Origin: an uncultured Croceitalea sp.
Lineage (GTDB): Bacteria > Bacteroidota > Bacteroidia > Flavobacteriales > Flavobacteriaceae
Assembly: GCA_947495075.1 (NCBI GenBank)
Contig: CANLXH010000001.1
Span: forward strand, 682,001 to 746,000
Direction: 5' to 3'
Length of the DNA stretch: 64,000 nucleotides
Position numbers and translations under genes: made by a program. Shown one piece after another: positions 6,878 to 38,925 of the stretch. The notes under the pieces were generated by a model. That model did no database searches. It was not told where the DNA came from and saw only the letters and a list, made by a program, of their open reading frames with translations. How positions within the stretch are numbered: position 1 is the stretch's first letter; each line of letters opens with the position of its first letter.

Positions 6878-7597
6878 CTAATACTTGTGTACGCTTCCTG
6901 AAACCGACTTTTTCTTTGATACCTCTGGGTTACCTGAATAAGAAATATCCGCTCCGCTACTCGCATCTGCGGTCAAAGCTTCAGATACATTAACCGATAT
7001 GTCCGAACCACTGCTCGCATTTGCGTTACAACGCTTTGCCAACAAGCTACGTGCTTTAATATCTGCTCCGCTGCTAGCATCTGCATAAAGGGCATCTGTT
7101 TGTCCAGAAATCTTAATATCTGCTCCGCTGCTAGCATCAGCTTCAACCTCTGCTGCAATTACCTCAACTTCTATATCGGAACCACTACTTGCATCTAAAT
7201 CTAGCTTTTGTGCTTTAATTTCATTTTGACCAATTAAATCTGCACCGCTAGAGCTTTCTAATACTGTTATTTCTGGAAGTGATACATAAATATTTTTAGT
7301 AGCCCTACCTATATTTTCTAAGGTGTGGATTCTTAGTTTACCGTCTCTAATATCTGTAGCAATAAGTTCTATTACATTCTCGTCTGCTTCTACTAAAATT
7401 TTGAAGTCATCCCCTTGAGTTACAAAAACATCAAGTCCTTCTGCTGCTGATATTTCAGTAAAATCTTCGGTTACTTTTCTGGTTTCTTCTGCTACTACGC
7501 CGTTCCCTTTTTTGCCATCACCAAAGTTAATATTAACGCAGGATGAAGCGAATAGCGCCAGTACCAAGCCAATTGCAATTCTTACTAATGTTGTCAT
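6878..7597 (-). CDS. head-GIN domain lipoprotein
   Basis: A 239-residue lipoprotein; the lipobox is in LFASSCVN with the acylated Cys near residue 20. The rest is a right-handed beta-helix-like solenoid of the head-GIN domain family (DUF2807), marked by about seven copies of ASSGADI or ASSGSDI spaced roughly 17-20 residues. Such proteins are common surface or periplasmic proteins in Bacteroidota, often next to PspC and PadR genes as here. Its molecular role is not established. A terminator at 7651-7686 separates it from the PspC gene, so it likely has its own promoter. Confidence 0.88.
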   Translation of the reverse strand: MTTLVRIAIGLVLALFASSCVNINFGDGKKGNGVVAEETRKVTEDFTEISAAEGLDVFVTQGDDFKILVEADENVIELIATDIRDGKLRIHTLENIGRATKNIYVSLPEITVLESSSGADLIGQNEIKAQKLDLDASSGSDIEVEVIAAEVEADASSGADIKISGQTDALYADASSGADIKARSLLAKRCNANASSGSDISVNVSEALTADASSGADISYSGNPEVSKKKSVSGSVHKY

Positions 7598-7650: not shown

Positions 7651-7686
7651 AAAAAAGGGTCACCCAACTGTCGTATTGGATGACCC
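7651..7686 (-). terminator. terminator after the PspC-domain gene
   Basis: Stem GGGTCAcCCAA (7657-7667) with TTGGaTGACCC (7676-7686), one mismatch, followed on the minus strand by six T. It lies 12 bases after the stop of the gene ending at 7698. Confidence 0.8.
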
Positions 7687-7697
7687 AGTTGTTGTTA

Positions 7698-20313: not shown

Positions 20314-20733
20314 CTAGAATCTTATCGCTAGATTTAAGTCTTTGTTTGCTACTTCAAATTTTGAATCTGTAAAAGATGGTGGCCCCATTGCCATGACATT
20401 ACCAGAAACTCCATAGCTTTCTTTAGGCATTCCGTTAGCTTCAAAATCCATTCTTTTATTGTCATTTTCATCGTGTAATACCATAACAGCATATGTGCCA
20501 GGGGTAATATCTTTAAAAGTGACTGTTACAGCTCCTTTTACAGCTTTTTCTTGTAAATCGATTACGCCTGGACCTTTCATAAAAGTTTCGTTGTTATGGA
20601 GAGAAATTAATACGTTCCCATTATCGTTTAAAACATTTTCAACAGTAACCGTTACAGTTACTTTTTCTTCTTCTTGTGCTTGTGTAGTGAAAGCAATTAA
20701 AAATATTCCCAAAGCAAACCCTAGATTTTTCAT
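20314..20733 (-). CDS. exported DUF2141 protein
   Basis: A 139-residue protein with a signal peptide (about 1-19, ends TQAQ). The mature part is one immunoglobulin-like beta domain with the DUF2141 pattern VTVTVENVLNDNGNVLISLH and YAVMVLHDENDNKRMDFEAN, followed by GMPKESYGVSGN. Acidic DENDNKRMD may bind calcium. The family is secreted and uncharacterised. It appears to be transcribed alone. Confidence 0.92.
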   Translation of the reverse strand: MKNLGFALGIFLIAFTTQAQEEEKVTVTVTVENVLNDNGNVLISLHNNETFMKGPGVIDLQEKAVKGAVTVTFKDITPGTYAVMVLHDENDNKRMDFEANGMPKESYGVSGNVMAMGPPSFTDSKFEVANKDLNLAIRF

Positions 20734-20982
20734 TTTGTTTTATTTTGATTGTTAATGATGGCTCAAAGTTGCAGTAAGGCTATTGGATTTTATAATTGAT
20801 CTTACTCAATTGTAGATAATCTTATCTGAATTGTAATAGGGATTCATTTTGCCATCTTTTTAAAGGCTTATTGTTATGAAGTGTACATTTTTATCAAAGT
20901 TTCCTCTTGTAATTTGGATACTTTGGTTTATACCCTAAAGACAATCTCCATTTAATAATAAATTCAAGTCATTTTGTCCCTA

Positions 20983-29403: not shown

Positions 29404-29535
29404 AGTATTTTGTAAGCGGCGAAGTTACTGGAATTTGTGACAATCCAGTCGCATAAACTTACAGTTGAGTAATTCTTATTGTTTAAAAAATACCCATTTG
29501 TAGATTTTTGGCTTGTCAATCAAAAATAAGCAGTC

Positions 29536-31698
29536 ATGAAAAACCAAATTACTTTTATTATTTGTTTGCTATTGGTTAGTGTTTCATCAGCACAATTAAG
29601 AGTCAATGGAATAGTTACAGATAAATCAGACACTCCAATTTTTGGAGCTAATGTTTACCTAGAAGGTACTTATGATGGGTCTTCAACAGACGAGAATGGT
29701 AAATTCTCTTTCGAAACCACAGAAACAGGAACACAAACATTGGTAATCTCCATGTTGTCTTATGAATCGCATTATGAAATGGGCGACGTTTCCTATTTTA
29801 AAGATATTAGCATTCAACTGGTAGAAGCTGTAAACTCACTCAATGGGGTTACCCTAATGGCAGGAACTTTTGAAGCTGGAGATAACTCTAAAGTATCAGT
29901 TTTAAAACCTTTAGATATTGTCACTACTGCTGGTGCTGCTGGAGATTTTGTAGCTGCGTTACAAACTTTGCCAGGTACAACAACCGTTAACGAAGATGGT
30001 CGTTTATTTGTGCGTGGCGGTGATGCCAGTGAAACGCAAGTTTTTATAGATGGTCTAAGGGTCTTTCAGCCATTTAATGCAACAGCTAATAATATTCCAA
30101 CTAGAGGTCGGTTTTCACCCTTTTTATTCAAAGGAATTACATTTAGTACAGGGGGTTATTCTGCAGAATATGGACAAGCTTTATCGAGTGTACTTTTATT
30201 AAATACTATAGATGTTCCAGAGCAAGAAAAGACAGATATTTCAATTATGTCTGTGGGTGGTGGAATAGGACATACTAAAATATGGGGAAATCAATCTTTA
30301 AGTTTCAATACGTCTTACGTTAATTTAGCACCATATGAGGCATTGATTCCTTCAAACCAAGGTGTGCGTTGGAATAGCCCCTATGAGTCTATTTCTGGAG
30401 AGGCAGTTTTTAGAAATAAAAGCGATAATGGCATTTTTAAATTATACACAGGATTTAATCATGCAGACTTAGATATTGAGCAAGAAAATATCAATTTTGA
30501 AGATTTTGTACGATTTCAACTAACTAACAATAACTTATATTTTAATTCTTCGTATAAACATTTTTTTAAAAGCAATTGGACCTTAACCTCGGGAGCAAGC
30601 GTTTCTTGGGATGCTAATGATATTGGATTATTGGATAATATTATTGATGTTAAGGAAACAGGTTCACATTTAAAATTGAAGCTTAAAAAAGGTTTTAGCA
30701 ATCGATTTAATCTAAGCTTTGGTGCAGAACTATTTAACCTTGACTATGAAGAAACTTTCAAAGCACCAAATGATTCTGAGTTTAAAAGCAATTATGACGA
30801 CCAGTTGGTAGCTGGTTTTGTTGAGGGAGATATTTTCTTTAGCAATAAGTTTGCTATGAAATTGGACGCAAGGGTTGAAAATACATCAGTACTTGATGAT
30901 TTCTCTTTTTCTCCTCGTGTTTCTTTAGCCTACCAGAGTAGTGAAAAAGGTCAATTTTCATTTGCTTATGGTGATTTTTATCAAAACCCACAAAACAATA
31001 TTTTGGGTTATAATCAAGATTTAGAACCCCAAAAAACTTCACATTATATTCTTAACTATCAGTATTTAGATAATGGAAAAACCTTTAGAGTCGAAGCATA
31101 TTATAAAGACTATGATAACCTACTAAAGTTTGATACAGAACTACCGCAATTTAACTCTCAATTTAACAACCTTGGGAGTGGTTATGCTAGTGGTTTGGAT
31201 ATTTTTTGGCGGGATAATAAAAGTATAAAAAACCTTGATTACTGGGTTTCTTATAGCTACTTGAACACAGAAAGAGACTTTAGAAATTTTGAAGAACGGG
31301 CTACTCCAAACTTTGCTGCCAAACATAACCTCTCTATTATTACCAAGAAATGGGTGAACAAATTACGCTCCCAGGTAGGTTTATCTTATAACTATGCTTC
31401 CGGCAGACCATACAACAACCCTAATACAACAGAATTTTTAGCAGAGAAGACAAAGGCTTTTAATAACCTAAGTTTTAATTGGGCTTATTTAATAGACCAG
31501 CAAAAGATTCTCTATTTCTCAATCAACAATGTACTTGGGTTTAATAATATAAACAACTATCAATACGCAGATACTCCCAATGTAAATGGAGTTTTTGATA
31601 GACAAACAATTAGACCGGCAGCCGATAGCTTTTTCTTTGTAGGGTTCTTTTGGACTATTAGTACAGATAAAAAGAGCAATCAGCTAGATAATTTATAG
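29536..31698 (+). CDS. TonB-dependent receptor
   Basis: A 720-residue outer-membrane protein with a signal peptide (1-19), a carboxypeptidase-like regulatory domain (about 20-105: VNGIVTDKSDTPIFGANVYL), a plug domain (about 120-230: GGDASETQVFIDGLRVFQPF) and a beta barrel closing with FFVGFFWTIS. It is of the CarboxypepD_reg-like, plug-containing type without a SusD partner. The substrate is unknown. It is the first gene of a run that includes the TPR-like secreted protein and the 2TM/LytS/LytTR genes. Confidence 0.93.
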   Translation: MKNQITFIICLLLVSVSSAQLRVNGIVTDKSDTPIFGANVYLEGTYDGSSTDENGKFSFETTETGTQTLVISMLSYESHYEMGDVSYFKDISIQLVEAVNSLNGVTLMAGTFEAGDNSKVSVLKPLDIVTTAGAAGDFVAALQTLPGTTTVNEDGRLFVRGGDASETQVFIDGLRVFQPFNATANNIPTRGRFSPFLFKGITFSTGGYSAEYGQALSSVLLLNTIDVPEQEKTDISIMSVGGGIGHTKIWGNQSLSFNTSYVNLAPYEALIPSNQGVRWNSPYESISGEAVFRNKSDNGIFKLYTGFNHADLDIEQENINFEDFVRFQLTNNNLYFNSSYKHFFKSNWTLTSGASVSWDANDIGLLDNIIDVKETGSHLKLKLKKGFSNRFNLSFGAELFNLDYEETFKAPNDSEFKSNYDDQLVAGFVEGDIFFSNKFAMKLDARVENTSVLDDFSFSPRVSLAYQSSEKGQFSFAYGDFYQNPQNNILGYNQDLEPQKTSHYILNYQYLDNGKTFRVEAYYKDYDNLLKFDTELPQFNSQFNNLGSGYASGLDIFWRDNKSIKNLDYWVSYSYLNTERDFRNFEERATPNFAAKHNLSIITKKWVNKLRSQVGLSYNYASGRPYNNPNTTEFLAEKTKAFNNLSFNWAYLIDQQKILYFSINNVLGFNNINNYQYADTPNVNGVFDRQTIRPAADSFFFVGFFWTISTDKKSNQLDNL

Positions 31699-31793
31699 GA
31701 TACAGTTCATCCTACAGATTCAACAATTGAGTTAGAAGCATTTAAAAAAGAAATAAAATCACAGCAATTTTGAACAAACAAAAACGAACAGTC

Positions 31794-32417
31794 ATGAAAA
31801 AAGCAATTCTATTTTTATTATTTGTAGCAGTAACCAATTTAAGCGCCTAAGATCAATACACTAAAGGTATGCAGAAAGCAATGGACTTATGGTCCGAACA
31901 AAAGATTGTAGAAGCATCGAATATGTTTGAACGTATTGCTACTGCAGAAATGGATAATTGGCTTCCTTATTACTATGTGGCTATGGTAAATACAACTGCT
32001 TCATTTGGGGAGAAAGATGAGAAAAAATTGAAACAACAGCTGGAAAAAGCTAAAGAGTATATTGATATTGCTAAGAATATTTCTCCAGACAATGCCGAAA
32101 TACTAGTACAAGAGGCAATGATAAATACGGCATGGATGGCATTTGATTCAGCTACTTATGGAATGACGCTTTCTGGAAAGAACTTTCAATTGTATAAAAA
32201 AGCAGCAGAATTGGCACCGGAGAATCCAAGGGTTGTATTTGGACAAGCAGAATGGAATATGGGAGCAGCTCGTTACTTTGGTAAAGATGTTACTCCCTAT
32301 TGTATGGATATAAAAAAGTCTTTAGAACTTTTTGCTACTTTTAAGCCAGAATCGCAGTTTCATCCTAATTGGGGGCAAGAGCGTGCTGAGCAAGTTGTAA
32401 AAGATTGTAAATCATAG
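31794..32417 (+). pseudogene. exported TPR-like protein gene with an in-frame stop
   Basis: The ATG at 31794 begins a good signal peptide (MKKAILFLLFVAVTNLSA). The next codon, 31848-31850, is TAA, then the frame runs on as DQYTKGMQKAMDLWSEQKIV to 32417 with no further stop. A CAA there would give the common signal end SAQDQYTKG, so one C-to-T change explains it. The mature part (about 185 residues) is helical and tetratricopeptide-like (AKEYIDIAKNISPDNAEILV). A Met at 31869 could restart translation without export. It ends three bases before the kinase gene. Loss, read error or restart are all open. Confidence 0.8.
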
Positions 32418-32420
32418 TTT

Positions 32421-33743
32421 ATGAAGAGTTTTATCAAGGTTCTTAAAGTATCGTTGTTGATTACAATCTTCATTTCTTTAATGAACCTTTTTATTTTTAC
32501 TGATGGCAATTATAGCGTGGATAATGTTATTCGTCAAATTATTATCAGTTTTATCTTCTCTTTAGGACTTACTGCTGCTAATTCTTACTATTATGATGGT
32601 ATAAGCATTCGCTACGATTGGGAAAAAGACCCAAAAAAAAGATTGTGGTTTGGCGCTATAGGTTCTATTGTAGTTACTCTTATAGTTTTTGCCATTCTTA
32701 GGTATTTAATGACACTTTATTATACCGGGAGGTCTGTAAGTGAGTTTGTTGAAAAAGAAGAAGCCAGTCCTTATATTATTGCGATTGTAATTACTTTAAT
32801 AGTATCACTCTTCATCCACGCCTTCTATTTTTATAGAGCACTCCAGAAAAAACAAGTTAAAGAACAAAAAATAATTGCTGGTACAGCATCTGCCCGTTTT
32901 GATGCTTTAAAAAACCAATTAGACCCTCACTTTTTATTCAATAGTTTAAACGTGCTTACAAGCCTTATTGAGGAGGACCCTGACCAGGCTCAAAAGTTCA
33001 CAACTTCTTTATCTAAGGTCTATCGCTATGTCCTGGAGCAAAAAAATAAAGATTTAGTTACGGTGAATGAGGAGCTGGATTTTGCTAGGACTTATGTACG
33101 TCTTTTAAAAATGCGTTTTGAAGACAGTATCGTTTTTGATATTCCAGAAACATCTCTTAATCCTGAAGCTAAAATAGTGCCACTTTCACTTCAGTTATTA
33201 CTAGAGAATGCTGTTAAGCATAACATTGTTACATCATCCAAACCATTACACATTAGGGTATTTGAGGAAAATGGGAATCTGGTAGTTAAGAATAACCTTC
33301 AAGAAAAACAGGTAGTTAGAAAAAGCAGCGGAGTAGGTCTGCAGAATATAGAACAGCGCTATAATATCCTCTCAGATAGAAAAGTAGTTATTCAAAAATC
33401 CATAAAAGATTTTAGCGTTTCTCTTCCCATGTTGAGTAAAAAGATTTCCGTGCTAGAAACACAGGAAACACATATTGAAGAAAAAAGATATTTAAAAGCT
33501 AAAGAGCGCGTGGATGCAATTAAAGGCTTTTATGGCAACCTCACTTCGTATTTAATTGTTATTCCTTTTCTATGGTGGTTAAATTATAGAACCACCGATT
33601 TTCTTTGGGCCTTCTTTCCAACTCTTGGTTGGGGATTTGGTTTAACCATGCATGCTATGGAAGCTTTTGGCTACAATCCACTTTGGGGTAAACGTTGGGA
33701 AGAAAAGAAGATTAAAGAGTTAATGGAAAAAGAGGATTTTTAA
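32421..33743 (+). CDS. LytS-type sensor histidine kinase with C-terminal 2TM domain
   Basis: A 440-residue protein. Four helices (about 7-29, 34-56, 72-97, 114-139) precede a His_kinase/HATPase region: H-box QLDPHFLFNSLNVL (about 172-185), N-box LLENAVKHN, and G-box SGVGLQNIEQRYN (about 303-315). From residue about 357 a 2TM domain follows (YLKAKERVDAIKGFYG, GWGFGLTMHAMEAFG, WEEKKIKELM). It therefore has six helices, with the kinase core between two membrane parts, which is unusual. The last gene of the run is its probable LytTR response regulator. Confidence 0.93.
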   Translation: MKSFIKVLKVSLLITIFISLMNLFIFTDGNYSVDNVIRQIIISFIFSLGLTAANSYYYDGISIRYDWEKDPKKRLWFGAIGSIVVTLIVFAILRYLMTLYYTGRSVSEFVEKEEASPYIIAIVITLIVSLFIHAFYFYRALQKKQVKEQKIIAGTASARFDALKNQLDPHFLFNSLNVLTSLIEEDPDQAQKFTTSLSKVYRYVLEQKNKDLVTVNEELDFARTYVRLLKMRFEDSIVFDIPETSLNPEAKIVPLSLQLLLENAVKHNIVTSSKPLHIRVFEENGNLVVKNNLQEKQVVRKSSGVGLQNIEQRYNILSDRKVVIQKSIKDFSVSLPMLSKKISVLETQETHIEEKRYLKAKERVDAIKGFYGNLTSYLIVIPFLWWLNYRTTDFLWAFFPTLGWGFGLTMHAMEAFGYNPLWGKRWEEKKIKELMEKEDF

Positions 33744-33798
33744 ATTAGTAAGCTGCAAGCAAATGTGGGTTGAGGTTAGGAATTTATAAGTTTTATTT

Positions 33799-33880
33799 TC
33801 AACCTTCAACCTTCAACCTTCAACCTTCAACCTTCAACCTTCAACCTTCAACCTTCAATCTTCAACCTTCAACCTTCAAC
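33799..33880. repeat. heptanucleotide tandem repeat
   Basis: Eleven tandem copies of TCAACCT plus a partial copy. One copy is TCAATCT (33855-33861); the rest are identical. It sits in the gap between the kinase gene and the first separate 2TM gene. Because seven is not a multiple of three, the array cycles through all frames; the apparent frame 33770-33970 is a by-product. Slippage would change the spacing of the operon. Confidence 0.97.
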
Positions 33881-33996
33881 TCTTTTCACAATCCATCCAT
33901 CAAAAATCACAACTCAGTCATACAGTTTTTTAAAACCCTTTTGGTATTCGGAGATTTGGTATGTAATTAAAAACAATCATAATAAAACATATCATC

Positions 33997-34275
33997 ATGT
34001 ATAATAGAGACGAGGATAAGTATCAAAAAGCAAAAAAAAGAGTAGAAGAAATAAAAGGTTTTTACAGCAACCTAATAACGTACTTAATTGTTATTCCTCT
34101 TTTAGGATATTTAAACTATAGGACAACAGATTTTCCTTGGGCTATATTCCCAGCTGTAGGCTGGGGTCTAGGGCTTTTATTTCATGGAATATGCGCCTTT
34201 GGTTTTAACCCTTTTTTAGGCAGAGACTGGGAAGAACGTAAAATGAAAGAATTAATGAATAGTGACGAATTTTAA
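33997..34275 (+). CDS. 2TM-domain protein, copy 1
   Basis: A 92-residue protein consisting of one 2TM domain (PF13239-like): basic amphipathic start YQKAKKRVEEIKGFYSNL, helix 1 (LITYLIVIPLLGYLNY), a short loop, helix 2 with GWGLGLLFHGICAFG, and a cytosolic end WEERKMKELM. It is closest to the C-terminal domain of the kinase at 32421, including the LNYRTTDF loop, suggesting that this copy derives from it or the reverse. Function unknown; likely a membrane partner of the kinase. Confidence 0.9.
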   Translation: MYNRDEDKYQKAKKRVEEIKGFYSNLITYLIVIPLLGYLNYRTTDFPWAIFPAVGWGLGLLFHGICAFGFNPFLGRDWEERKMKELMNSDEF

Positions 34276-34324
34276 TTTATCAATAATAGATGCCCAGTTA
34301 AGCTGAGCATAAAAAATAAAACTC

Positions 34325-34612
34325 ATGGAATCAAATATAAACGAAACAAAATATAGGAGAGCTCAAGATAGAGTGGCCAAATTAAAACGATTTTATGGAC
34401 GAGTTTTTAGAGGTGTATTGGCAATTATTATAACAGGAGCCATAAACTACTATCTTAACGAATGGACGCATCCATGGTTCTTATGGGTTGTTTTTGGTGT
34501 AGGTTTAAGTCTTTCATTAAAAGCATTTAGACTTTTTGGCACTCATCTTTTATTCGGAAAAGATTGGGAAGAACGAAAAGTGAAAGAATTAATGGATAAG
34601 GATGTTTTTTAA
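34325..34612 (+). CDS. 2TM-domain protein, copy 2 (divergent)
   Basis: A 95-residue 2TM protein: YRRAQDRVAKLKRFYGRV, helix 1 (about 34-52), loop ending HPWFLW, helix 2 and WEERKVKELM. In helix 2 the His found in the other copies (GxGLxxHA) is absent; the text reads VGLSLSLKAFRLFG. The start differs from copies 1 and 3 mainly in helix 1. It lies 49 bases after copy 1 and 45 bases before copy 3. The missing residue may mean loss of ligand binding or a regulatory partner role. Confidence 0.88.
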   Translation: MESNINETKYRRAQDRVAKLKRFYGRVFRGVLAIIITGAINYYLNEWTHPWFLWVVFGVGLSLSLKAFRLFGTHLLFGKDWEERKVKELMDKDVF

Positions 34613-34657
34613 ACAATTTGTAATTTTAAATCAATCAGTCAATCAAAGCATACGATA

Positions 34658-34960
34658 ATGGAAATTAATAGAAACGAAAACAAATACATTAGAGCACGGG
34701 AGCGGGTTGAAGAGCTTAAAAAGTTTTACGGTCACGTAACTTCATATGTATTAGTAATAGGGGGTCTTGCTGCACTAAATTATTGGACCGATGGATGGCG
34801 TTATATGTGGTTCTTGTGGGCAGCCTTAGGATGGGGAATCGGACTTATTGCACATGCGATTGGGACATTTGGTCTAAACCCTTTCTTTGGAAAAGACTGG
34901 GAGAAAAGAAAGATTCAGGAATATATGGAGAAGCAAGAAGATAATGAAAAATGGAGGTAA
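34658..34960 (+). CDS. 2TM-domain protein, copy 3
   Basis: A 100-residue 2TM protein: YIRARERVEELKKFYGHVTS, helix 1 (SYVLVIGGLAALNY), loop with DGWRYMWFLW, helix 2 with GWGIGLIAHAIGTFG, and WEKRKIQEYMEKQ. Its end overlaps the longest frame of the next gene, but I place that gene's start three bases after this stop. It shares the double pattern FYGH and HA with copies 5 and 6. Confidence 0.9.
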   Translation: MEINRNENKYIRARERVEELKKFYGHVTSYVLVIGGLAALNYWTDGWRYMWFLWAALGWGIGLIAHAIGTFGLNPFFGKDWEKRKIQEYMEKQEDNEKWR

Positions 34961-34962
34961 TC

Positions 34963-35283
34963 ATGGATGATACTAAAGATAAATATACAAGAGCGAAAAA
35001 AAGGGTAGATGAGCTAAAAGGATTTTACATACATGCTTCAATTTATACCATTATAAATGCATTTATTTTAGTTAATATATTCATTCAAAGCGGATACGAT
35101 GGTCAAGGTTTTTGGCAGATAGAACATTTCTTTACCCTATTTTTCTGGGGAATTGGATTGTTTTTTCATGCTGCAAAGGTGTTTAGGCTAAATCCTTTTT
35201 TCAATAAAGATTGGGAAAAGCGCCAGATTGAAAAATACATGGAAAAAGATAAGGAAGATGCTGAAAAATTTACAAAAAGATGA
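34963..35283 (+). CDS. 2TM-domain protein, copy 4
   Basis: A 106-residue 2TM protein: YTRAKKRVDELKGFYIHAS, helix 1, an extended loop (SGYDGQGFWQIEHF), helix 2 with FWGIGLFFHAAKVFR and WEKRQIEKYMEKD. An earlier ATG at 34951 lies inside the previous gene. I prefer the ATG at 34963: a GGAGG sequence eight bases upstream makes an unusual Shine-Dalgarno for this phylum. Its stop overlaps the next start by four bases (ATGA). Confidence 0.87.
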   Translation: MDDTKDKYTRAKKRVDELKGFYIHASIYTIINAFILVNIFIQSGYDGQGFWQIEHFFTLFFWGIGLFFHAAKVFRLNPFFNKDWEKRQIEKYMEKDKEDAEKFTKR

Positions 35284-35633
35284 GTAAAGATTCTGTGATA
35301 AAAGATCAATTGGCAAAGGCAAAGAAAAGAGTAGAAACATTAAAGAATTTTTATAAACATCTCACTGTTTATGTAGTGGTGAATGGTTTTCTACTTTTAG
35401 TTGCTAAAAGAGTAACGTTTATTTTTTTGAGTAAAGAAGCACTAGGTAATCCAGGGTTTTTAGAATGGATAGATTGGAATGTTTATGGTACACCTATAAT
35501 CTGGGGATTAGCACTGCTGCTGCATGCGGCTTATGTTTTCATATCCAGTCCTTTTAAAAAATGGGAAGAACGTCAAATCCAAAGCTATATTAGAAAAGAT
35601 AGGGAGGAAACTGAAAAGTTTACAAGAAAATGA
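35280..35633 (+). CDS. 2TM-domain protein, copy 5
   Basis: A 117-residue 2TM protein: LAKAKKRVETLKNFYKHLT, helix 1 (VYVVVNGFLLLVAK), a loop of about 25 residues containing GNPGFLEWIDW, helix 2 with IIWGLALLLHAAYVF, and WEERQIQSYIRKDREETEKF. It overlaps copy 4 and copy 6 by four bases each. The longer loop puts it with copies 4 and 6 in a sub-group. Confidence 0.9.
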   Translation: MSKDSVIKDQLAKAKKRVETLKNFYKHLTVYVVVNGFLLLVAKRVTFIFLSKEALGNPGFLEWIDWNVYGTPIIWGLALLLHAAYVFISSPFKKWEERQIQSYIRKDREETEKFTRK

Positions 35634-35965
35634 GAAAAGAATCAAGTACAGCTAACCGTTATCAAAAAGCCCAAAAAAGAGTCAAAGAACTAAAAGGTTT
35701 TTACAATCATTTAAAAATCTTTGCTATCGTCAATACGTTATTATACCTAGTCAAAAGCGGAGCACTAAATCCATTGATGCCTAAAGGATTCCCTACCGAA
35801 TCTTATTATTTTGATTGGATACACATTAACTTTTTAATTTGGGGTTTAATGATTGTAGCACATGCTCTAATCTTATATAGACATAAATTACCTTTCCTTA
35901 AAAAATGGGAAGAAAAACAGATTCAAAAGTATATTGAAAAAGATAAACAAGAAACTGAAAAATAA
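35630..35965 (+). CDS. 2TM-domain protein, copy 6
   Basis: A 111-residue 2TM protein: YQKAQKRVKELKGFYNHLK, helix 1 (FAIVNTLLYLVKSG), a loop of about 28 residues with TESYYFDWIH, helix 2 with IWGLMIVAHALILYR, and WEEKQIQKYIEKDKQETEK. Start overlaps copy 5 by four bases; its stop is 29 bases before the response regulator. Copies 4-6 share the acidic-basic tail KDxEETEKF, absent from copies 1-3. Confidence 0.9.
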   Translation: MRKESSTANRYQKAQKRVKELKGFYNHLKIFAIVNTLLYLVKSGALNPLMPKGFPTESYYFDWIHINFLIWGLMIVAHALILYRHKLPFLKKWEEKQIQKYIEKDKQETEK

Positions 35966-35994
35966 CTATAGCTTTAAACTCTTAGAAAGATAAA

Positions 35995-36750
35995 ATGAAA
36001 GCAATCATCATTGAAGACGAAAAACCAGCAGCAAGAAGATTAGGAAGATTATTAGGTCAACTTAATGTAAATGTGTCAACAATGCTACATTCTGTTGAAG
36101 AATCCATTGAGTGGTTTCAGAATAATGAACATCCCGAACTTATTTTTTTAGACATTCAACTTTCGGATGGACTTTCATTTGAAATTTTTGATGTTATTGA
36201 AGTTAGAAGTGCGATTATTTTTACCACTGCATTTGATGAATATGCACTACAAGCATTCAAGCTAAATAGCATTGATTATTTGTTAAAACCTATTGATGAT
36301 GAAGAACTTGAAAAAGCAGTAAAACAGTACCGAGATTTTAAGCCTGAAAAAGAGCGAATTTCAGTTGATTTTGAAGATATAAAAAAGCTACTTGTAAACC
36401 CACTTGAAAGGGAGTATAAAAAAAGGTTTACTACTAGGGTAGGGCAGCACTTAAAAATTATAAATGCCGATGAGGTAGAATGTTTTTTTAGTGAAAATAA
36501 AGGTACTTATGCCGCAACTCTAGATGGTAGAAATTATTTGCTTGATACCACATTGGAAAATTTAGAAGAGGAGTTATCTCCTAAAATGTTCTTTAGAGTA
36601 AGTAGAAAATTTTACGTAAACATTAACCACATCAACGACATCATTTCTTATACAAATTCTAGGCTTCAAATCAAGTTAAATCACTTTAAGGAGCAAGAAA
36701 TCATAGTAAGTAGGGAGCGAGTTAAAGATTTCAAGCTTTGGTTGGAATAA
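35995..36750 (+). CDS. LytTR response regulator
   Basis: A 251-residue response regulator. The receiver domain (about 1-120) has the acid pair at EDE (residues 7-9), the phospho-acceptor in LIFLDIQLSDG (Asp near 53), Thr in FTTAFDEYAL and Lys in SIDYLLKPI. The C-terminal LytTR DNA-binding domain covers about 150-250. It ends the run of 2TM genes and is probably phosphorylated by the LytS-type kinase at 32421. Targets are unknown; the operon's own promoter or the TonB receptor gene are natural candidates. Confidence 0.94.
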   Translation: MKAIIIEDEKPAARRLGRLLGQLNVNVSTMLHSVEESIEWFQNNEHPELIFLDIQLSDGLSFEIFDVIEVRSAIIFTTAFDEYALQAFKLNSIDYLLKPIDDEELEKAVKQYRDFKPEKERISVDFEDIKKLLVNPLEREYKKRFTTRVGQHLKIINADEVECFFSENKGTYAATLDGRNYLLDTTLENLEEELSPKMFFRVSRKFYVNINHINDIISYTNSRLQIKLNHFKEQEIIVSRERVKDFKLWLE

Positions 36751-36827: not shown

Positions 36828-38021
36828 CTATGAATTTTCTTCAATCCTATTATCATCAAAAGCAGACGGTAACAACTTAGGAATTAGTTTTATAAATATA
36901 GGTAATAAAACGGCACCTCCCGGTAAAATAAAAATGGCAAGAGAAGGTATAGATTTAAAAATATCAATTAATTGAGATTGTATTTTTTTTCGCTCTTCTT
37001 CATTTAATTCCTTGGTTGTAGATTTGGTTAAAAGTAAAACCAGTTCCTTGCTTTCCAATAATTCTTTTTTTAGTCGCTTACTGTTTCTTAGAATTATTTT
37101 ACTAACACTTTTAATCATTCCATCGTAGAATTTGGAAGCTAAATTTGTATCTTTTAAATAGGGTATTTTTTCATGATTTTTTTCAAAGAAAATGCGCACA
37201 TTTTTTAGTGCGATTTCTATGGTGTTTTTATCGCGATTTAAGTCCTTTCCTAATCCATAAATATATTCCGATTCTGTGTAGTCTAAAGAGTGGTCTTCCC
37301 AAACTGTTAAGCAGGCAATGTCTAATAAATATTTTTTTTCACAATCTGTAAAGTTAGATTGTAACATATCTATATAGCTGCCATTAAAATTTGTGGTACT
37401 AGCATCTACATAAGTTAACGATGATGCTAAAAGTTGAATTAACTTGGCATCAGACTTACTAGTCTCTTTAGAATTTAGTGCTTGATAAGCGATATTGACG
37501 GTTATGTATTCTAGTAATTGTGCATGTTTTATAAGGTTATACCTATTGGTTAAATAAGCTCTAAATAGTAAAACATCAATAAAAAGAAGAGAATTTGTAA
37601 GGCTATTGCCAAATGCTCTATTAAATATGTTACCATTTAGATAAATTCTAGAATCTATAAGCTTTTCAAGTTGTGCGTCTGTCTTTTTGCCAGTGAGTAT
37701 TTTGTTGAGGAAGGATATTTTACCTAAATCTAACATATTATAATAATCAAACACTGTATCGACAAAATCTTCAAAGTTGTTGTTTTTGGTATCGAATCTG
37801 TACGAATAGAATAAGGCTGACAGCAAATTTATTTTGGCAACTTCATCTTCAGATAACTCATGTTCTGTTTCAATAAAAGAAGGGACCGCCAAATGTATTC
37901 CATAAATAAATCCATTTACTAGTAGGTCTTGATAGAGAGAATCAAAATTTGCATAAGAGTTAGAGTATTCGCTAGATAAAGAGCCAAATTTTGATATCCA
38001 TCCTGAGGCTGAAGGGTTCAT
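36828..38021 (-). CDS. LETM1-related protein
   Basis: I place the start at 38021 (MNPSASGWISKFGSLSSEY), giving 397 residues; a longer frame adds a hydrophobic decapeptide without support. The protein is largely helical and resembles the LETM1-related proteins of Flavobacteriia described in connection with biofilm. The C-terminal segment (ERKKIQSQLIDIFKSIPSLA, then a hydrophobic stretch with PGGAVLLPIF) is LETM1-like: one or two membrane-associated helices. Function in bacteria is unknown. Confidence in the family name is moderate. Confidence 0.72.
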   Translation of the reverse strand: MNPSASGWISKFGSLSSEYSNSYANFDSLYQDLLVNGFIYGIHLAVPSFIETEHELSEDEVAKINLLSALFYSYRFDTKNNNFEDFVDTVFDYYNMLDLGKISFLNKILTGKKTDAQLEKLIDSRIYLNGNIFNRAFGNSLTNSLLFIDVLLFRAYLTNRYNLIKHAQLLEYITVNIAYQALNSKETSKSDAKLIQLLASSLTYVDASTTNFNGSYIDMLQSNFTDCEKKYLLDIACLTVWEDHSLDYTESEYIYGLGKDLNRDKNTIEIALKNVRIFFEKNHEKIPYLKDTNLASKFYDGMIKSVSKIILRNSKRLKKELLESKELVLLLTKSTTKELNEEERKKIQSQLIDIFKSIPSLAIFILPGGAVLLPIFIKLIPKLLPSAFDDNRIEENS

Positions 38022-38202
38022 GAGGTAGGTAATTAAAATCAAAGAAAACAAAAATATAGGACTCCACCTATATTTCTATCTAAAGACTAGTATTCTTTAG
38101 GTTAAGAACGACCTTAATATAATTTTAACATTTTAAAACCAAACCCCATATTTCAATAGTGCGTAGGTAAAGCTGTATTAATCTTCAAAAAAACAATTTA
38201 AA

Positions 38203-38925
38203 ATGAAAAAAACAACCAAAATCATTACTGGAGTAGGGTTAATGGCCTTAGCTATCGGAATTTTTGTAGCAGCGGATCATATAGATGCTCCAGCAAGTAT
38301 GGGCACTACAGCAGACATTGCTGACTATTTTGCTTTTGAACCTTCTTTAGACTCGGATAATACTGTGTTTATTGTTGACTTACAGTCAAATGTACTTGAT
38401 GGATTGGCCTTTGGAACATTTGATGAGGATGTATTAACAGAAATCAATATAGATTTAGATGGAGATTTTGTAGAAGACATGGTTATACAAGCTATTCCAA
38501 GAGATGGTAGAATGTATTTCTTTGGCCCTGTTGCACCAAACCAAACAGGTTTAAACAGTGAAGTATTAGTAGATTTCCCTCTCGGCGATGTAGAGATTTC
38601 CACTACTACTGCTATAACAGAAACTACAGCAGATGGGGTTTCACTTTTTGCTGGTCCACGCCAAGACCCTTTCTTTTTTGACTTTTTTCAGTTCAATGCT
38701 GTAATTGACCCAGATATAAACTCTGCCGTTGGAGGATTTAAACCTGCAGATGACCCTAATACTACAGATGACGATGCTGATGCTGCGGTGGACACTTTTG
38801 ATGGCTCTAACACAATGGCTTTAGCTATTGAGATTCCTAACAGTATGCTAGGTACTGCGACAGGGGTAAATTTCTTCAATATTCCTGTTTATAAGACATG
38901 GATTACAACTAATAGAAAACGATAA
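38203..38925 (+). CDS. exported DUF4331 protein
   Basis: A 240-residue protein with a signal segment (1-24) followed by DHIDAPASMGTTADIADYFA, the start of the DUF4331 domain. This motif (SDHADSP-like in many homologues) places aspartates and histidine near the mature N-terminus. The domain is about 220 residues and ends KTWITTNRKR. Function unknown; the family is exported and often clustered in pairs, as here with the next gene (23-base gap). Confidence 0.87.
   Translation: MKKTTKIITGVGLMALAIGIFVAADHIDAPASMGTTADIADYFAFEPSLDSDNTVFIVDLQSNVLDGLAFGTFDEDVLTEINIDLDGDFVEDMVIQAIPRDGRMYFFGPVAPNQTGLNSEVLVDFPLGDVEISTTTAITETTADGVSLFAGPRQDPFFFDFFQFNAVIDPDINSAVGGFKPADDPNTTDDDADAAVDTFDGSNTMALAIEIPNSMLGTATGVNFFNIPVYKTWITTNRKR

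Follow-up and report, generated by a model that had tools for sequence, protein, structure and literature searches.

Small 2TM membrane proteins encoded between a LytS-type kinase and a LytTR regulator: a two-component locus conserved in Flavobacteriaceae

What are six small membrane proteins doing between a sensor kinase and a response regulator? The question is raised by a locus in a 64,000-nucleotide stretch of DNA (hereafter the window; positions 682,001 to 746,000 of contig CANLXH010000001.1, assembly GCA_947495075.1) from an uncultured Croceitalea sp. of the Flavobacteriaceae. There, all on the forward strand, a LytS-type histidine kinase of 440 amino acids (32421..33743), with N-terminal membrane helices and a C-terminal 2TM tail, is followed by six genes for free 2TM proteins (copies 1 to 6, at 33997..34275, 34325..34612, 34658..34960, 34951..35283, 35280..35633, and 35630..35965) and by a response regulator (35995..36750) made up of a receiver and a LytTR DNA-binding domain. 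This layout had been proposed from the nucleotide letters alone (the sequence-only reading), and both the coordinates and the Pfam assignments agree with it. The genes had also been described as mostly overlapping or close, which is true of copies 3 to 6, to which the overlaps are confined, and not of the kinase and copy 1, which lie 253 bp apart. The computations reported here establish the conserved composition of the locus, two classes of 2TM domain, predicted regulator sites, and the co-occurrence of these sites with the cluster. The reading that we favor, with a probability of roughly 55%, is that of a two-component system, conserved in flavobacteria, that has accessory subunits in the membrane and is subject to feedback.

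The kinase matched His_kinase (PF06580; E value, 3e-26) and, at residues 359 to 436, i.e., in the last ~80 of its 440 residues, the 2TM domain PF13239 (E value, 7e-29). The same domain was matched by each of the six free proteins (E values, 1e-19 to 8e-31), with bit scores of 70.8 to 106.3 compared to 100.3 for the kinase, all above the Pfam cutoff of 24.8. Residues H170, N263, and G306 of the kinase (H-, N-, and G-box, respectively) were invariant across 79 aligned sequences, two of the 80 kinases (L162 and L172) having been omitted from the alignment, and the closest PDB fold matches were histidine kinase regions. An uncultured Croceitalea is the closest named relative. The regulator matched Response_reg (PF00072) and LytTR (PF04397), and its phospho-acceptor pocket is intact (D53, T77, and K98). 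By the sequence features tested, the locus is a LytS/LytTR two-component system. It shares with YpdA/YpdB, BtsS/BtsR, and LytS/LytR the PF06580 kinase with a multihelix N terminus, the receiver-LytTR regulator, and direct repeats of a 21-bp period, and differs from them in the C-terminal 2TM tail, the one to six free 2TM genes in the operon, and a predicted regulon of its own. An identity with BtsSR or LytSR was rejected, the regulator scoring below the NCBIfam cutoffs (107 of 246 and 102 of 375 bits, respectively).

Matches to PF13239 occurred in all eight genomes of the genus and in 56 of 60 genomes sampled from the family. The kinase-2TM cluster was present in 49 of these 60, as counted from the fetched kinase-2TM loci; the other 11 had zero or one PF13239 match, and six of them were additionally searched with the kinase alignment. 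All eight genus genomes carried the kinase-2TM gene together with free 2TM genes (in one, G001, on two contigs), and the LytTR regulator followed in six; in G003 the contig ends at that point, and in G004 no LytTR regulator was seen beside the 2TM genes, which lie near the contig start. A first set of 74 kinase-2TM loci had a free 2TM gene downstream in 73 and a LytTR regulator within the stretch in 68, the six without one being the split locus of G001, two loci at or near contig ends (L012 and L013), and three in which other genes follow (L037, L050, and L062). Among 80 named loci, chosen by kinase similarity in a search with the kinase alignment, all had free 2TM genes and 78 had a receiver domain downstream. 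In a sample of the order, PF13239 was matched in 19 of 59 genomes, 10 of this family (the source genome among them), 8 of a single further family, and 1 with a score below the Pfam cutoff; all eight clusters fetched from the other family had the kinase-2TM gene, free 2TM genes, and regulator in the same order. The gene order that the sequence-only reading had proposed to look for in other Bacteroidota is thus found in this family and in a second one. A phylum sample had matches in 26 of 118 genomes; of 13 2TM loci fetched from outside the order, 1 adjoined a kinase and a LytTR regulator by our own profiles. A scatter of 2TM genes with no link to LytS/LytTR genes, named earlier as the sign of a chance arrangement, is therefore not what is seen inside Flavobacteriaceae and is what is seen outside the order. 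Two variants bear on the relation between kinase and free proteins: L034 is a single kinase bearing two 2TM domains, and L087, from outside the order, is an operon of the form 2TM-kinase-regulator in which the 2TM protein is unfused.

That copies 1 to 3 differ from copies 4 to 6, as had been noticed from the letters, was borne out by a tree of 372 domains, in which kinase tails and copies 1 to 3 (class I; copy 1 clusters with the tails) stood apart from copies 4 to 6 (class II). The local support for the split was 0.86 on one side and 0.92 on the other, with 8 of the 372 domains (5 of them free copies) outside both classes, and the tree evidence is only moderate since the sequences are short. 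Class models assigned all 147 kinase tails to class I. Judged by tree and models, the split is a real and old bipartition. Over 146 distinct loci (154 less 8 dropped for identical kinases), the number of free copies was 0 in 1 locus, 1 in 27, 2 in 35, 3 in 42, 4 in 22, 5 in 13, and 6 in 6. Class II was present in 140 of them and was the only class in 22 of the 27 single-copy loci; minimal systems consist of a class I tail and one free 2TM protein. All class I genes lay ahead of all class II genes in 88 of the 102 loci with both classes, compared to 30.0 (standard deviation, 4.4) for random order; these figures are descriptive, since part of these data also went into the models and related loci do not count as independent. 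The earlier suggestion that the condition sensed perhaps differs from copy to copy found no support here, there being two classes and a minimal system of the tail plus one free protein. A coupling of copy number to kinase divergence, for which the sequence-only reading had proposed to look, was not seen overall: the Mantel correlation over 144 loci was not significant (r = 0.04; 323 of 2,000 permutations as high), although the nearest kinases were closer in copy number than random pairs (0.82 versus 1.52).

Each 2TM protein has two hydrophobic segments (TM1 and TM2), with 7 or 8 lysines plus arginines before TM1, 0 or 1 in the loop, and 4 to 10 after TM2, a distribution that fits cytoplasmic location of both termini. 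A structure model of copy 4 (mean predicted local distance difference test score [pLDDT], 87.8; predicted template modeling score [pTM], 0.62) has a long first helix continuing into TM1, which a short loop connects to TM2, and ends in a C-terminal helix. No solved relative of the class II protein was found by sequence (one match; E value, 0.89) or by fold (best E value, 5.1). Since the pTM of the kinase model was 0.43, helix packing in it was not interpreted. Class II proteins carry a histidine in the pre-TM1 helix (92%) and an asparagine in TM1 (85%); class I proteins have an asparagine at the end of TM1 (94 to 100%) and an invariant tryptophan. A class II alignment comprised the window copy and 67 of 153 homologues (100 listed).

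Sixteen receptor promoters have in common a direct repeat, roughly ACAATTCAT-N12-ACAATTCGGT. LytTR targets are described, in the part of the source available, as 9-bp repeats with a 12-bp gap, i.e., a 21-bp period (PMC6193735). Matches to ACAnTT peaked at a distance of 21 (4.54 of 5, compared to 0.44 to 2.13 at the other distances from 12 to 33); the 21-bp site being the search criterion, this peak shows that there is no competing spacing and is no independent estimate. The repeat precedes a receptor-DUF2141-TPR-kinase unit, the free 2TM genes in many genomes, and separate DUF2141 and DUF2807 genes. In the window, five genes are preceded by it at 61 to 78 bp: a TonB-dependent receptor gene (29440..29470, + strand; 30.5 bits, 65 bp before the gene), a TPR-type gene (31702..31732, +; 17.8 bits with 2 mismatches, 61 bp before the likely start at 31794), the first free 2TM gene (33888..33918, +; 13.7 bits, 78 bp before copy 1), a DUF2141 gene (20804..20834, −; 28.3 bits, ~71 bp), and a DUF2807 gene (7662..7692, −; 30.0 bits, ~65 bp). 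With at most one mismatch, the source genome had three sites and its control none, all three in the window, before the receptor, DUF2141, and DUF2807 genes. The eight genus genomes had 18 such sites compared to none in the reversed control, and all 18 precede receptor (5), TPR (2), DUF2141 (6), or DUF2807 (5) genes, which were named by similarity to the Pfam-checked genes of the window. A family-consensus pattern gave sites in 45 of the 60 family genomes and in none of the 60 reversed controls; they were present in 44 of the 49 cluster-bearing genomes and in 1 of the 11 cluster-less ones (Fisher P, 4e-7).

The pattern was written after inspection of the 16 receptor promoters, 12 of which come from loci outside the genus. 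A matrix was built from genus sites alone, and, with three genus loci left out, 77 of the 80 named loci were tested with it. At 14 bits or more, it gave 107 matches in 1.036 Mb, compared to 2 in the reversed sequence; 96 of them precede a unit or DUF2141 gene, and 11 lie elsewhere. The top site was at most 260 bp before a unit gene in 51 of the 77 loci (1.8 expected) and in 40 of 65 when the 12 loci already inspected (11 matches) were set aside; many of the remaining top sites lie between the kinase and the first 2TM gene, a category added post hoc. A table of site neighbors with 48 rows (at least three sites occur in it twice), in which L257 to L272 were hand-picked among off-cluster sites and L229 to L256 were unpicked, had 35 rows in the TonB-dependent receptor, TPR, DUF2141, kinase, and 2TM profile families; the remainder were 3 rows without a gene, 7 with DUF2807 by eye (2 motif flagged), and 3 with other proteins. 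The consensus of 68 top sites has a TTTG-containing box downstream of the site, with exact TTTTG at offset 35 in 20 of them. The DUF2807 site lies near PadR, PspC-toastrack, and DUF2807 genes, and DUF2807 is counted, in the portion of the source at hand, among the toastrack domains tied to envelope stress (PMC11237479). This setting points to envelope homeostasis.

The 2TM genes themselves appear among the predicted targets. In all eight genus genomes, the best site before the first free 2TM gene scored 13.0 to 22.0 bits and lay at 65 to 81 bp in seven and at 241 bp in one; in G001 it is retained though the kinase is on a different contig. At 12 bits or more, where the background was 6 matches in 1.036 Mb of reversed sequence on both strands, 32 of the 80 named loci had a site between the kinase and the first 2TM gene, and among the 43 loci in which this gap is at least 80 bp, 28 carried an intervening site. 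Sites of this strength before the upstream genes or the kinase were found in 71 of the 80, and 27 had sites in both places. Given these predicted sites and the co-occurrence of sites and cluster, direct control of the 2TM genes by their own system is probable, and the array often seems to form a second transcription unit, one controlled by the product of its last gene, the regulator. Directly upstream of the copy 1 site, at 33798 to 33874, lie eleven heptamer units (TTCAACC, with one variant); such an array is also found in the closest relative, L015, and in none of six other genus loci, and it is conceivable that it is a length-variable element near the promoter.

In the mechanism that we propose, the kinase would phosphorylate D53 of the regulator, and the phosphorylated regulator would bind the repeats just upstream of the promoter and activate the target genes, in which case the system would make more regulator and more 2TM proteins. 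Within the inner membrane, the free 2TM proteins would bind the kinase tail via like-to-like 2TM contacts and set kinase activity, most likely by negative feedback. Parallels for negative feedback are the action of CpxP on CpxA and of LiaF on LiaS. The signal may be an inner-membrane or envelope disturbance, since the predicted targets are envelope proteins, one of them within a PadR-PspC-toastrack cluster. That the free 2TM proteins meet the kinase is argued for, not proved, by the homology of the tail, the double-2TM kinase L034, and the unfused protein of L087. The tail and these variants, together with gene order and predicted sites, speak for one system of kinase, 2TM proteins, and regulator, as the sequence-only reading had it; outside the order, that association was seen in the one locus already mentioned. 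We put forward more tentatively, giving it less than an even chance, the further idea that the 2TM proteins are interchangeable sensor subunits: the regulator would drive up to six tail-like proteins of two classes, these would form mixed assemblies with the tail, and lineages would tune gain, threshold, and adaptation by gain and loss of subunit genes, leaving the kinase unchanged.

Several observations weigh against the proposed system. The sites are tied to this particular regulator by linkage and co-occurrence, in a genome that has 22 LytTR matches. With two mismatches, the source genome had 11 sites compared to 5 in the control, which makes weak sites unsafe alone; of the 8 further sites so obtained, the sole fitting one is that before the TPR gene, and the case for the copy 1 site (13.7 bits) is that it is conserved in the genus. 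With a stricter family pattern there were 9 matches compared to 5 in the control, all 9 preceding unit genes, one of which is a short TPR-like open reading frame. G010 carries sites, yet the search found no kinase-2TM gene there, and in L037, L050, and L062 the stretch contains no LytTR regulator downstream of the 2TM genes. Sites of at least 12 bits were absent before upstream genes or 2TM genes in 4 of the 80 named loci and between kinase and first 2TM gene in 48, in 33 of which the gap is shorter than 80 bp. Of the 146 distinct loci, 5 have as their only free 2TM protein one of class I by score, and in 1, which is split over contigs, no free 2TM gene is adjacent. Finally, the 2TM proteins could be outputs instead of kinase subunits.

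In this last alternative, which we consider unlikely and yet the best of the rivals, the regulator would drive the free 2TM proteins for the sake of the inner membrane, to stabilize or remodel it, and the kinase tail, a sensor sharing their fold, would not bind to them. The 2TM genes having a predicted site of their own, like the other envelope targets, in all genus genomes and 32 named loci is what one would expect of outputs. So is the occurrence of PF13239 genes outside the order apart from such kinases (12 of the 13 fetched loci) and of another 2TM branch fused to or beside DHFR, which indicate that the domain can act without this kinase. What outputs would not lead one to expect is that copy 1 groups with the kinase tails, that a double-2TM kinase exists, and that the free 2TM genes remain between kinase and regulator with no dispersal.

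It is improbable, to our minds, that the 2TM proteins tether and block the regulator at the membrane as in the LytTR Regulatory Systems, the kinase being a second input. Such systems co-transcribe a membrane inhibitor and a LytTR regulator and have repeats before the promoter, according to the accessible part of PMC6193735, and here too a single transcription unit, preceded by the repeat, is predicted for the 2TM genes and the regulator, which in G001 stay together away from the kinase. Yet in this locus the regulator includes a receiver domain (with D53) and is paired with a cognate kinase, and it is the kinase, not the regulator, that carries a 2TM domain as its tail. It is hardly credible that the 2TM genes are a functionless series of chance tandem duplications, with which a loosely inherited copy number of 0 to 6 would agree. 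This view was rejected on the class tree, the class order fixed across the family, and the genus-wide dedicated predicted sites; the six reading frames in the window are moreover all intact, with ratios of nonsynonymous to synonymous substitution rates of 0 to 0.26 relative to the closest relative (few substitutions, in a stretch that looks exchanged).

Placing accessory proteins under its own predicted control, the system that we favor resembles the LytTR Regulatory Systems, LiaFSR, and CpxAR-CpxP and is a member of none of these. With HdrRM and BrsRM it has in common membrane proteins beside a LytTR regulator, repeats before the operon, and predicted autoregulation (PMC6193735, as far as that text is available). 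It differs in having a kinase and a receiver domain and in that the membrane proteins belong to PF13239, and membership in the LytTR Regulatory Systems of the HdrRM type was rejected on the presence of receiver domain and kinase. As in LiaFSR and CpxAR-CpxP, an accessory membrane or periplasmic protein would be induced by its own regulator; here the accessories are homologues of the kinase tail, up to six in number, and the regulator is of the LytTR and not the helix-turn-helix type. A further likeness to these envelope-stress systems is the toastrack proteins as partners (PMC11237479, in the part accessible).

We know of no function for PF13239. No description of such a system, no link of the 2TM domain or PF13239 to LytTR or a histidine kinase, and nothing on a GIN-domain protein in flavobacteria was found in the open-access literature; the wording "2TM" in the available parts of a PSP survey (PMC11237479) and a Xanthomonas paper (PMC6337780) refers to other proteins, and the accessible portions of PMC5989583, PMC10057207, PMC5395568, and PMC10197871 contain no functional link for DUF2141 or LytTR in Flavobacterium. 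In Flavobacterium johnsoniae, FJOH_RS09515 (LytTR) or FJOH_RS09520 (kinase) was mutated in each of five coevolved lines, according to the part of PMC10197871 available; this is probably a different pair, since the adjacent locus tags leave no space for 2TM genes. Across Flavobacteriaceae, the 2TM domain is now linked to a kinase, a regulator, a predicted DNA site, and a small set of predicted envelope targets, which makes binding, regulon, and feedback directly testable. If the feedback is true, the sensor would be of a design that uses copies of its own membrane tail as adjustable regulators.

Compared to L114, the closest relative found, the window showed 74 to 83% identity (300-bp steps) upstream of 33.0 kb, 93 to 99% from 33.6 to 36.6 kb, and 66 to 86% downstream of 36.6 kb. 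In 75-bp steps from 33.3 kb it was mostly 94 to 100% (84 to 93% in eight steps), dropping to 70% at 36.75 kb, which is the regulator stop; another genus member had 73 to 86% over the same stretch. The high-identity tract covers the kinase tail, the six 2TM genes, and the regulator. The simplest reading of these identities would be that tail, 2TM array, and regulator were transferred together in a recent homologous exchange; it is a single case, and its match to gene boundaries could be due to chance.

The wider unit begins in the window with the receptor gene (29536..31698, +), whose product also has a CarboxypepD_reg domain, and continues with the TPR-type gene (31794..32417, +); a DUF2141 gene is absent at that place. 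The predicted regulon members outside the unit are the stand-alone DUF2141 gene (20314..20733, −) and the DUF2807 gene of toastrack type (6878..7597, −), which adjoins the PspC and PadR genes. At least one of the three families occurred upstream of the kinase on the same strand in 52 of the 80 named loci (TPR in 49, TonB-dependent receptor in 22, and DUF2141 in 16), the stretches ending at 6.5 kb or at contig ends. In the first set, of 88 loci, TPR/DUF2141-type open reading frames were found in 57 and receptor-type ones in 27 (upstream in 25). Insertions between 2TM genes or before the regulator were occasional (amidohydrolase, methyltransferase-like). The TPR-type gene of the window has, by eye, an in-frame stop (31848 to 31850) within an apparent signal peptide, and is open in the relatives checked (L009, L013, and L015); between gene loss and sequencing error we are undecided.

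Some single loci depart from the common layout. In G001, whose kinase is on a separate contig (L010:1-1641 and L009), a cas9-like open reading frame, recognized by eye, adjoins the 2TM-regulator unit. In L124 (Flavobacteriaceae bacterium GF1), the kinase and the first free 2TM gene of the class I list are ~2.3 kb apart (between 7820 and 10139). In G054, no free 2TM cluster was found; a related tail-less kinase (L273) is preceded there by a 13.6-bit site, and a lipoprotein-like gene lies between it and the LytTR regulator. A co-loss of tail and free 2TM genes, considered for L273 and L274, the tail-less best kinase matches in genomes lacking the cluster, was not used as evidence, orthology not being established. 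The neighbors downstream of the window locus, a LETM1-like gene (36828 to 38051, −) and a DUF4331 gene (38203 to 38925, +), are kept in many loci. The source genome has one other PF13239 match, on a different contig (C3), where the 2TM gene lies just upstream of and overlaps a DHFR gene; the two are fused in L099 (2306 to 3199), and the observation also rests on L096:3059-3939. This branch suggests a membrane-tethered DHFR in Flavobacteriaceae.

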